31,214 nucleotides of DNA, taken from positions 1-31,214 of the IMG/VR virus record IMGVR_UViG_3300021964_000303; one strand, 5' to 3'. Positions 1 to 31,214 of this stretch are shown one piece after another. The stretch comes from a virus. The position numbers were made by a program, and so were the translations under genes. The notes below the pieces were generated by a model. The model was given only the letters and a program-made list of their open reading frames with translations. It did no database searches and was not told where the DNA came from. The number at the start of each line of letters is the position of its first letter. Position 1 is the stretch's first letter.

Positions 1-2
1 CT

Positions 3-164
3 CTCAAAGGTAGACCATCCTCTATCTCACAGAAGCAGGAACTACGCATCGGTGGTAAGGATGTAGCACAAATACGTGCAGAGATGATGGAGTATGCCCG
101 TGAGGAATATGAGAAGAAGCATCCAGAGCCAATCATCGTCACTGAGGCTCAAGATGACTCTTGA
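3..164 (+). CDS. C-terminal end of an upstream gene (partial; terminase region?)
   Basis: An open frame enters from the left edge and runs 53 codons to a TGA at 162-164. The visible part is charged and probably helical, with a Lys/Glu-rich stretch ending PIIVTEAQDDS. Its position directly upstream of the portal gene, 35 bases away, is where a terminase subunit usually sits, but no ATPase or nuclease motif is visible in this fragment. The terminase assignment is therefore only positional inference. Confidence 0.6.
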   Translation, partial: LKGRPSSISQKQELRIGGKDVAQIRAEMMEYAREEYEKKHPEPIIVTEAQDDS

Positions 165-22067: not shown

Positions 22068-22456
22068 TTCAGTTTCTTCTCCCGCAGTTTTTTGAAGTGG
22101 TCGAGGAGTTCTTGCTTAATCTCAACAGTACAAAAATCACAAAAACCTTTCTCTTTATTCCAAACTCGATACCCTCTCAGTTGGTTTAGCATCCAGTCAA
22201 TATCGGATATTATGTTTTTGCCATAATCTGGAGGTAACTCTTCGCACTCCCGCACCTCTTTGAGTGACAGTTCCCGATCCCAGTCCGGTGCGTCTGACTT
22301 GCGACGATAATGCCTCACTGTGTCAGGAGTTGGTGCGATTAAACAATCCTCCCACCAGTCATCTCGTATATGCAATTGCCACCACTCCCAAGGCTTGCCT
22401 TCTGGGTGTAGGAGTTCGTCAAGGTCGTAGGCTTTCGTCTGTTCTTCGGTGGTCAT
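22064..22456 (-). CDS. Hypothetical early protein rich in Trp
   Basis: 130 aa. The N-terminal part is unusually tryptophan-rich (KPWEWWQLHIRDDWWEDC, about 21-38), followed by HYRRKSDAPDW (about 49-59). The Trp/Arg-Arg-Lys layout recalls small phage proteins whose function is unknown. Both ends have ATGA overlaps. Nothing else can be assigned. Confidence 0.75.
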   Translation of the reverse strand: MTTEEQTKAYDLDELLHPEGKPWEWWQLHIRDDWWEDCLIAPTPDTVRHYRRKSDAPDWDRELSLKEVRECEELPPDYGKNIISDIDWMLNQLRGYRVWNKEKGFCDFCTVEIKQELLDHFKKLREKKLK

Positions 22457-23028
22457 GATTGTGTTGCTTCCTCTCTTTCGTTAATCACTTCCAGCATAAT
22501 CATTGCGGTGGCTCCGATATGAGCCCAATGAGATCGTTGTGATTCTGGATCTAGTGCTTCACCTTTCATCATGGCGTTGATGTGCCGTCGTGTGGCCCCG
22601 TAGTAGGTGGCATCTTGGATGGAGTCGATATTGCCTCGCCAATTATATACGCCATACTTATCAGCACCGAGTTTGAGTACGTGTGCAATCTGTTCCTCTG
22701 CCACTGGCGGGATTAGATCTAGTGGTGCTTTATCGGTGGACGCTAGTTGCTTAGGGTCGCCTTCCTTGATTAGCTTTTCTTCCTCCCGCCATTTGGTAAT
22801 GTATCCGTAGAAGTACGAAGTTGCGGCTTTCCATTCTGCGTTAGGGCAATCATCTTGATCTGCCCATCTACCTGCATTTGTGGTGATATAATGACGTTTA
22901 TTTCCATTTTCCCATGTGATATGACCTAGATATTTCTTTAGGTAGCCTCCTATTTCATTCGGCAGTGCAAAGTATTCTTCCCTTGTGAGTGGCGGTATGG
23001 TTTCTAGTGGGTTTTTGTATTCGCTCAT
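22453..23028 (-). CDS. dATP/dGTP diphosphohydrolase-like protein (MazG superfamily, DUF5664/PF18909)
   Basis: 191 aa. The C-terminal half (about 98-185) matches the DUF5664 pattern: a KAPLDLIPP start, LKLGADKYGVYNWRG (about 117-131), then Y-x-A-T-RRHINAMMKGE-x-x-DPES and a final helix WAHIGATAMIMLEVI with conserved His/Glu. Relatives of this family (S-2L MazZ) hydrolyse (d)NTPs to monophosphates, which affects the nucleotide pool during phage replication. The N-terminal ~95 residues are Trp/Tyr-rich and not recognised. AAGGA precedes the start. Start and stop fit the operon. Confidence 0.72.
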   Translation of the reverse strand: MSEYKNPLETIPPLTREEYFALPNEIGGYLKKYLGHITWENGNKRHYITTNAGRWADQDDCPNAEWKAATSYFYGYITKWREEEKLIKEGDPKQLASTDKAPLDLIPPVAEEQIAHVLKLGADKYGVYNWRGNIDSIQDATYYGATRRHINAMMKGEALDPESQRSHWAHIGATAMIMLEVINEREEATQS

Positions 23029-27472: not shown

Positions 27473-27608
27473 GTTCGTATGGGTATTTGATTGCTTGGCG
27501 TTTGCGGTATTGTTTGTTTGAATGGAGCAGCCCCCATCCGATGAGAGTTGTGAGCAGTGTCCATGGTATGGCTACTGCTAAGATGATCTGATAGAGTTCG
27601 AGTTCCAT
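27465..27608 (-). CDS. 47-residue single-span membrane protein
   Basis: The frame from ATG 27608 to TAA 27465-27467 gives 47 aa. Residues 6-29 are hydrophobic (LYQIILAVAIPWTLLTTLIG), then a basic tail with NKQYRKRQ. Its ATG overlaps the ERF stop (TAATG) and its stop overlaps the DUF3127 start by 8 bases (ATGAGTAA), an exact fit. A charged cytoplasmic tail after one span is a common plan for small phage membrane proteins. The location between recombination genes suggests a moron or a membrane-tethering partner; function unknown. Confidence 0.78.
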   Translation of the reverse strand: MELELYQIILAVAIPWTLLTTLIGWGLLHSNKQYRKRQAIKYPYEHE

Positions 27609-28213
27609 TATTTCTTGCCTTTCAAGTTGATTTGATGCTGGCGAGCATTCTCAAGTACCTTCTGAGGGTCTGCAATGATCTCAGAACGCCACTTCTGCAC
27701 GTCATCGAACCCTTGCCCTACTTTAATCGCCTTAACGCTCACAAGGTAGCTTAGAACGATCTCACCCTCGGCTCCGAATGCCTCGACAGTCTTCTGTGGC
27801 AGGCCAATCTTGCCTTTGCCTTGCGTGACAGGCTTAGAGTCGCCTTGTGATGCTTGATTTCCATCATCGTCCTCATCTACTGGACAAACTCCAGTAGCAG
27901 AAAGCCAAAGCATTCGCCTTGCGTAGGTTTGGGCGGACTTGAGTTGCTGAGGATTACTTACGTCCTTACACCGCAACTCAATTGAGCTATATAACTCTTC
28001 GCCTGACTCAGTGTGAATCAGTGTTAGTTTTTGGAGATCCGCATCGGAGTATTCCAATACAGCAATGCCTTGTTTACTGAACACTGGACGGCACTGCTTG
28101 ATGATCGTGTCCAATGTTGCGTAGTTGCTACGGAAGTGCGGATTGACCGCATTGTTTTCGATTACAGGCATCTCGTTATGAGCCTGTAATAGTGCTTTTG
28201 CTAGTTCTTTCAT
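27608..28213 (-). CDS. erf: ERF family single-strand annealing recombinase
   Basis: 201 aa. The N-terminal ~125 residues follow the ERF superfamily pattern (LAKALLQAHNEM, NPHFRSNYATLDTIIKQCRP, then KSAQTYARRMLWLSATGV near 92-109, then an acidic DEDDDGNQ). ERF proteins anneal complementary single strands and form rings, working with an exonuclease and SSB. All three are adjacent here. The C-terminal part (about 125-201) is lysine-rich and linker-like. Start context TAATCCTATG lacks a ribosome site, as for other genes with this leader. Confidence 0.88.
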   Translation of the reverse strand: MKELAKALLQAHNEMPVIENNAVNPHFRSNYATLDTIIKQCRPVFSKQGIAVLEYSDADLQKLTLIHTESGEELYSSIELRCKDVSNPQQLKSAQTYARRMLWLSATGVCPVDEDDDGNQASQGDSKPVTQGKGKIGLPQKTVEAFGAEGEIVLSYLVSVKAIKVGQGFDDVQKWRSEIIADPQKVLENARQHQINLKGKK

Positions 28214-28253: not shown

Positions 28254-28499
28254 TCATGAATTGCCTTGCGTGTCAAGAAATAGTTTTTTCTTAGGTTCCT
28301 TTACATGGATCACCATTTCCCTGGTGAAGTATCGGTGCTGGCAATGCTGGCACTTGCGTTCTCGCACGATGCCATTGTTAAAGCCTGCTATTTGGCCTTG
28401 ACGGACACATGGATGACCATGCTCGTTGTCGGTGTTTTCTGACAGTTCTCTTGTGTCAATAACGGAGAGTTTGGTTCGACATATAGTGCAGTATTTCAC
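28254..28499 (-). CDS. NrdR-like zinc ribbon protein without the ATP-cone
   Basis: 81 aa, starting at GTG 28499 with AGGA 8 bases upstream. Cys4-x2-Cys7 and Cys50-x2-Cys53 form a zinc ribbon, and VIDTR (13-17), VRERKC (45-50) and RYFTREMVIHV (56-66) closely follow the N-terminal DNA-binding domain of the ribonucleotide reductase repressor NrdR (VIDSR, RRRRQC, RFTTFE). The ATP-cone that makes up the rest of NrdR is absent. A spacer of about 20 residues is inserted between the cysteine pairs. It could bind NrdR boxes in the host or phage, without nucleotide sensing. Confidence 0.72.
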   Translation of the reverse strand: MKYCTICRTKLSVIDTRELSENTDNEHGHPCVRQGQIAGFNNGIVRERKCQHCQHRYFTREMVIHVKEPKKKLFLDTQGNS

Positions 28500-29006: not shown

Positions 29007-29318
29007 TTACGAACAGCAACCGCAGCATGGTGCGTCTTCACAACGTCCGTTTTTGTTTTGGTAGACGTAAGACCCTGTGCTGGGAATGTAAGCACTCCAG
29101 GACTGATATTTACTGCTTCCAGATTGAGAGGCTGCATAAATACCAGCGGCATCGCCTTCATCACCCCAAGAAAGCTCTAAGGCTTCACTTGCGGTCAATG
29201 GTTTGCATTCTAAACAAGTGCAGCTCCACTTGCGTCTCCTGAGTTTTTTAATTGTACCCATACCAGGGTTTACTTTCGTTCCACATTGGGAACATTTTGA
29301 TGCGTATTTGTTTTTCAT
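29007..29318 (-). CDS. Cys-rich hypothetical protein (zinc ribbon N-terminus, Cys-cluster C-terminus)
   Basis: 103 aa. Cysteines C9-x2-C12 and C33-x-C35-x2-C38 form a zinc-ribbon-like unit at the N-terminus, with KKLRRRKW between them that suits nucleic-acid binding. The C-terminal end is GRCEDAPCCGCCS, five cysteines in eleven residues. The middle is Ser/Tyr-rich. The two cysteine regions probably bind metal. Function unknown; a small DNA- or RNA-binding early protein is plausible. Confidence 0.68.
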   Translation of the reverse strand: MKNKYASKCSQCGTKVNPGMGTIKKLRRRKWSCTCLECKPLTASEALELSWGDEGDAAGIYAASQSGSSKYQSWSAYIPSTGSYVYQNKNGRCEDAPCCGCCS

Positions 29319-30513: not shown

Positions 30514-31214
30514 AGGATTTTTAGAGTTTGTCCGTCTGGTTTATTCCAGCGAACACAAACACAAAACCACAAAACCTAGTGTAGCGTCAAGAAAAACTGT
30601 AAACTATTTTTCTACCCTTTAGGGTACACTCTCACATTTCCACCTCAAAACAATCAATGAATAAAAATGCAATCAAAGTACTATCACTCCTAAGCACAAC
30701 TCTCACACCGCTCCAACGCATACGTGTAACTTATATACTTGACACACCATTTTCTGACTCCCACATTTACCCCCTATTGATTGTTTCTTACCCCCAATTG
30801 GCTACTCTCTCACCCGTAGCCGGAATAGGCCAAAGCAACTATTCCCAAAAGGATAAAGCTAGTCACCTAGTATGCAGCTCTAGCAGATAGCCAAGCAAAC
30901 TACAGGCCATACGTTACAACATGTGGGCCATATGATAGGCCTAACCAAGTCCGGCATTACCTTCCCTCGATCCACTCTTCCTACTGACTGAGCACCTGGA
31001 CCCGTAAGCTAATAACCGCAGGCGATCCATCAGGTTACACGCATCACCGACACACCTGCACGATCCACAACTTACACGCCTAGCATCGGCACGCAGGCAA
31101 CTTAATAAACGCACGCCAATAAGTTACGCATCACGCACGCTCTCTAGTTAGGCATGGGGGGGGGCGGTACGGGTTCGCTCGCCTGATTTTACTATTAGCC
31201 TGACTACCCCCTCG
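30514..31214. other. Long noncoding right end with C/G skew and short repeats
   Basis: About 700 bases with no convincing gene. A 77-codon frame at 30657-30890 has no ribosome site and looks random. The left part is C-rich and G-poor on the + strand (20 C and 5 G in 30661-30720). TTACACGC occurs at 31035-31042 and 31072-31079, and TTACGCATCACGC at 31124-31136. A run of nine G lies at 31156-31164. It may hold early promoters, a packaging or terminal sequence, or an origin; none can be shown. Confidence 0.5.
30613..30626. promoter_or_regulatory. Palindrome upstream of the early operon, possible operator
   Basis: TACCCTTTAGGGTA is a palindrome with 6-bp arms and a 2-base centre. It lies 100 bases before the first early gene. 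The sequence between (30514-30612) includes TTGACG on the minus strand at 30588-30583, -35-like but without a good -10. No T-run suggests a terminator. Confidence 0.3.

Follow-up and report, generated by a model that had tools for sequence, protein, structure and literature searches.

A predicted stand-alone NrdR-type zinc ribbon without an ATP-cone in the early operon of an estuarine phage

Introduction

DNA recognition by NrdR, the repressor of ribonucleotide reductase (RNR), involves residues D15, R17, R26, R28 and R37 of its zinc ribbon, and the pairing of two ribbons involves R27, R29 and E42 (PMC9110341, PMC12176259). DNA binding requires R17, and its specificity depends on D15; the R17A substitution abolishes binding, and mutation of the RRRR motif (R26–R29) impairs it (PMC9110341, PMC12176259). 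NrdR tetramers are joined through ribbon pairs (PMC9110341). A zinc ribbon of similar size to the one described here is found in phage P2, where the 72-residue zinc protein Ogr is a phage transcriptional regulator. Stand-alone ribbons of phages carry the UniProt name "Transcriptional repressor NrdR-like N-terminal domain-containing protein", and our literature search found no study of phage NrdR-like ribbons.

Genomic context of the ribbon gene

IMG/VR record IMGVR_UViG_3300021964_000303 is a virus DNA of 31,214 bases, analysed over its whole length and referred to below as the window. It belongs to an estuarine phage. The plus strand carries structural genes up to about 21,524, and the early operon lies on the minus strand, running from about 30,513 down to 21,521. 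PaP3-like Pseudomonas phages hold distant kin of the major head protein of the phage, and other viral contigs hold close kin of it. Two contigs of related phages, L066 and L076, are used for comparison throughout. The genes around the ribbon gene that matter for the argument are as follows.

28254..28499, minus strand: 81-aa NrdR-like zinc-ribbon gene with a GTG start (open reading frame, PF22811 match, orthologues, predicted fold)
27608..28213, minus strand: Erf-like single-stranded DNA annealing protein, directly downstream of the ribbon gene, syntenic in L066 and L076
27113..27472, minus strand: DUF3127/single-strand DNA-binding protein (SSB), the next gene in the early operon
29007..29318, minus strand: phrog_5664 small cysteine-rich protein, upstream of the ribbon gene, syntenic in L066 and L076

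The ribbon gene is flanked upstream by the phrog_5664 gene and a small uncharacterised gene, and downstream by the genes for Erf, SSB and a PolB-type exonuclease.

Several other features of the region were recorded. The window probably covers only part of a genome of some 38 kb, lacking a stretch of about 7 kb present in L076, since L076 runs about 7 kb past its match to the end of the window and then matches window positions 1–133 at 99%. Upstream of the early operon, a region of about 700 bases without conserved genes (30514–31214) is conserved with L076; by eye it is rich in GTTAC-CGCATCAC-like repeats, and it is possibly an origin or promoter region. The start context AAAATAATCCTATGAAAAA is common to several early genes, as direct repeats (28208, 28933, 29313). 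The sequence CTGTCACGCAAGG and near copies of it stand at 27819, 28264, 28516 and 28992, around the ribbon and Erf genes, and are partly kept in L066 and L076; a scan allowing up to three mismatches found these repeats no more frequent near the ribbon gene than expected by chance.

The minus-strand gene at 22453–23028 contains a dATP/dGTP diphosphohydrolase N-terminal domain (PF18909, E = 6.5e-25). Its PHROG matches include families labelled "endolysin; inhibits RNA polymerase", a label that seems misleading here. At the orthologous locus of L076, the position of the GP88 gene is taken by a different protein with a weak DUF7227 match (L076:2831-3535), which suggests a swap there. In another relative, a terminase-like open reading frame (L035:2856-4946) shows an apparent in-frame, intein-like insertion (CLHGDTEIYDPYEGYKKI ... 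VPEYENYYAQGCFHHNS), noted by eye only.

Evidence for the gene

A Shine–Dalgarno-like stretch, GGAAGG, precedes the GTG start. Orthologues with 83% identity occur in L066 and L076 in the same position beside Erf. The dN/dS value of the whole gene against the L066 copy is 0.11, and that of the insert described below is 0.32; at the level of coding sequence, this shows purifying selection on the ribbon gene. The gene is kept in L066 and L076, where two of its neighbours in the window, a 121-aa gene and the GP88 gene, give no match within the examined stretches of both contigs. No ribbon was found in G007, a more distant relative carrying Erf, SSB, phrog_5664 and GP88. Searches of viral contigs and phage records with the single protein returned no relatives. 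Judged by its orthologues and substitution pattern, the gene at 28254–28499 is real.

Identity and predicted fold of the ribbon

The 81-aa protein follows the pattern C4xxC7 ... VIDTR(13–17) ... RERKC50xxC53 ... RYFTRE(56–61). Both CxxC pairs (C4, C7, C50 and C53) are kept in L066. Its parts map to the window as follows.

28431..28490, minus strand: N-terminal half of the ribbon with the first CxxC (C4, C7) and VIDTR, matching PF22811 positions 3–23
28365..28448, minus strand: hairpin segment, residues 18–45 (between R17 and R46), holding the 18-residue insert and the conserved GHPCVRQGQIAGF; pLDDT about 50
28317..28376, minus strand: C-terminal half of the ribbon with RERKC, the second CxxC (C50, C53) and RYFTRE, matching PF22811 positions 23–42 and the motif

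The only sensible Pfam domain match is Zn_ribbon_NrdR (PF22811; E = 6.9e-6, 26.3 bits), which falls 0.9 bit short of the cut-off of 27.2 and comes in two stretches because of the insert. Matches to Cox20 and YlxR lay under their own cut-offs and were rejected. On a profile built from other ribbons, from which the 81-aa protein was excluded, it scored 43.9 bits; the highest of 5000 shuffles that kept the four cysteines in place reached 23.7, and none scored as high as the protein. The NCBIfam equivalog model of full NrdR, TIGR00244, gave 12.3 bits, where its cut-off is 124.65. The ATP-cone (PF03477) was absent from both the protein and the whole window, in searches whose controls worked.

A profile of 22 phage ribbons was compared with the PDB, and its significant sequence matches were to NrdR only (E = 1e-10 to 7e-8). 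AlphaFold2 run with a 22-row alignment predicted a three-strand ribbon with a core pLDDT of 85–91. The best PDB fold matches of this model were NrdR chains, at a Foldseek probability of 1.00 and with E-values of 0.02 or worse. As the alignment includes NrdR-like rows, the fold match is consistent with the sequence result and not independent of it. The fold computed from the single sequence was set aside (pLDDT 47). Taken together, the profile comparisons and the model show the protein to be a predicted single zinc ribbon of NrdR type without the nucleotide-sensing domain. A sequence-only reading of the same DNA had proposed the NrdR-type metal-binding and VIDTR/RYFTRE pattern and the missing ATP-cone, and had named a structural match to NrdR as a check; all three agree with these results.

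The insert

The two cysteine pairs are separated by 42 residues in the 81-aa protein and by 24 in Escherichia coli NrdR, a difference that gives the insert a length of 18 residues, close to the earlier estimate of about 20. It is kept in the L066 and L076 orthologues. The same-length insert pattern occurred only in these two among the viral contigs and nowhere in species-representative genomes; this pattern has a fixed length, and kin with inserts of other lengths would escape it. An apparent long insert in L071 was not counted, for the alignment there covers only the second half, and a longer open reading frame overlaps this one in a different frame. What is new in the 81-aa protein is the conserved insert, which was seen in three related phages only.

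DNA-facing and pairing residues

By alignment, three of the five NrdR residues for DNA recognition are kept (D15, R17 and R37, the last as R56) and two are lost, R26 being replaced by V45 and R28 by E47, so that the stretch corresponding to the RRRR motif reads V-R-E-R. D15 and R17 are present in the L066 copy as well. All pairing residues are kept: R27 corresponds to R46, R29 to R48 and E42 to E61. The protein has thus retained the interface and the base-reading pair and lost part of its grip on the DNA backbone. The loss of R26 and R28, with the insert beside the DNA-facing strands, suggests that its target site or its affinity differs from those of NrdR at the NrdR box.

Stand-alone ribbons in other phages

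A search with the E. coli NrdR ribbon found short ribbon reading frames, several of them unannotated, in EBPR siphovirus 2, Synechococcus phage S-CRES2, Blautia phage Montmirail, Roseobacter phage CRP-901 and others, and a motif scan of viral contigs gave 41 stretches matching an NrdR-like ribbon. PF22811 was matched by all 22 aligned ribbon members, the 81-aa protein included, and none of the 26 ribbon-bearing records showed an ATP-cone. The conservation of R27, R29, R37 and E42 in the motif-selected set is no independent evidence, as the pattern required these residues. Many proteins in a viral fold library are already named NrdR-like. Stand-alone NrdR-like ribbons are therefore common and spread over unrelated phages, and "unusual", as the early reading had it, is too strong a word for one.

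The same reading had called for a search of phage genomes for truncated ribbons near RNR genes. Many ribbons were found, and those checked mostly adjoin replication or recombination genes, not RNR; DNA polymerase, helicase, RecE and sigma-factor genes lie near them.

Discussion

We tentatively favour, at a probability of roughly 45%, the view that the 81-aa protein is a dimeric ribbon made early and insensitive to nucleotides, whose most likely role is that of a small DNA-binding regulator of the phage. Encoded in the early replication/recombination operon, it would pair as an NrdR-like ribbon–ribbon dimer, as the kept interface residues suggest. With D15 and R17 in place, the dimer would bind a short palindromic DNA site free of nucleotide control and act on transcription as a small regulator whose targets are probably phage genes, in the manner of P2 Ogr. 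The PF22811 match, the profile score far above the shuffles, the NrdR matches in sequence and fold, and the kept base-reading pair argue for this reading, as do the genes near other phage ribbons and the weak relation to Ogr. Against it stand the two lost DNA-face residues, R28 now being a glutamate, the weakness of the Ogr link, and a place in the early module, where small phage genes of any kind are often found; nor was a DNA target found.

The ribbon might instead have no regulatory role and be a structural element of the Erf/SSB/helicase recombination module, with single-stranded DNA, branched DNA or partner proteins as its ligands. This is unlikely, although Erf, SSB and the exonuclease lie downstream in an arrangement that is syntenic in L066 and L076, other phage ribbons are placed near polymerases and helicases, and the change of R28 to glutamate would be easier to accept if the NrdR-type kinking of DNA were gone. 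A generic ribbon would not need D15 and R17, which both the 81-aa protein and its L066 copy keep, and G007, where Erf and SSB are present and no ribbon was found, implies that the module can work without one.

Slightly less probable still is the proposal of the sequence-only reading that the ribbon blocks or frees host RNR operons by occupying the NrdR boxes ahead of them, by which the phage would set its dNTP supply. The kept base-reading pair would suit such a role, and with the diphosphohydrolase-domain gene at 22453–23028 the phage may alter dNTP pools. Infection by the pneumococcal phage SpSL1 strongly induces the NrdR regulon, though no ribbon is implicated there (PMC6755750). However, R26 and R28, which belong to the motif whose mutation impairs NrdR binding, are lost, and NrdR acts as a tetramer over two boxes, built partly through the ATP-cones that the 81-aa protein lacks. 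The window and the searched relatives, several of which are fragments, yielded no large, small or class III RNR subunit, an absence that is not proof; RNR large-subunit genes above the cut-off were present in two of the 26 ribbon-bearing records and missing in 24. NrdR boxes in the window were not above chance (two, against a shuffle mean of four). Nothing found ties the 81-aa ribbon to control of DNA-precursor synthesis, and the proposed control of RNR is unsupported.

It is improbable that the ribbon is dominant-negative, forming mixed dimers with the ribbon of host NrdR so that no DNA-bound tetramer arises and RNR is derepressed. In favour of this idea, all three interface residues (R27, R29 and E42) are present although two of the DNA face are gone, and ribbon pairs do join NrdR into tetramers (PMC9110341). 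A homodimer, however, would use these interface residues as well, and the 18-residue insert could clash. An extended form, in which the ribbon, its DNA face weakened and a hairpin inserted, captures host NrdR in DNA-incompetent dimers as a nucleotide-insensitive viral antagonist of the RNR repressor, is a long shot. That the ribbon occupies or poisons host NrdR is, in general terms, possible.

The residue pattern, with the interface kept and the DNA face partly lost, makes the host-NrdR and phage-regulator readings testable against each other. If the ribbons are phage regulators, small early genes of an entire class would gain a function. Ribbons directed at host NrdR or at NrdR boxes would form a viral switch on dNTP supply, and if the antagonist reading is true, phages would have in their many stand-alone ribbons a widely used means of unlocking dNTP synthesis.

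Comparison with known systems

The closest described system is the N-terminal ribbon of NrdR (PF22811; PDB 7p37, 9fxk and 9gex), which shares with the 81-aa protein two CxxC pairs, the VID[ST]R, RxRxC and RxxTxE motifs, the predicted three-strand ribbon and the dimer-interface residues R27, R29 and E42. The 81-aa protein differs from NrdR in having no ATP-cone, in its 18-residue hairpin insert and in the changes of R26 to V, R28 to E and R/K12 to S. The families phrog_36879 and phrog_10675, listed in PHROGs as function-unassigned, are likewise single ribbons of about 50–110 aa without an ATP-cone. Unlike the 81-aa protein, most stand-alone phage ribbons lack a long insert, and the match to phrog_36879 reaches only E = 0.035. 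P2 Ogr differs in lacking the RxRxC arginine pattern and in having CxxxxC as its second pair; the Ogr/Delta family (PF04606) gave no match to the 81-aa protein at E ≤ 1. The ribbon family as a whole resembles P2 Ogr, taken there as a single sequence, weakly (hhalign probability 72%, E = 3e-5). By analogy, this weak relation fits the idea that phages may use ribbons of such size as regulators.
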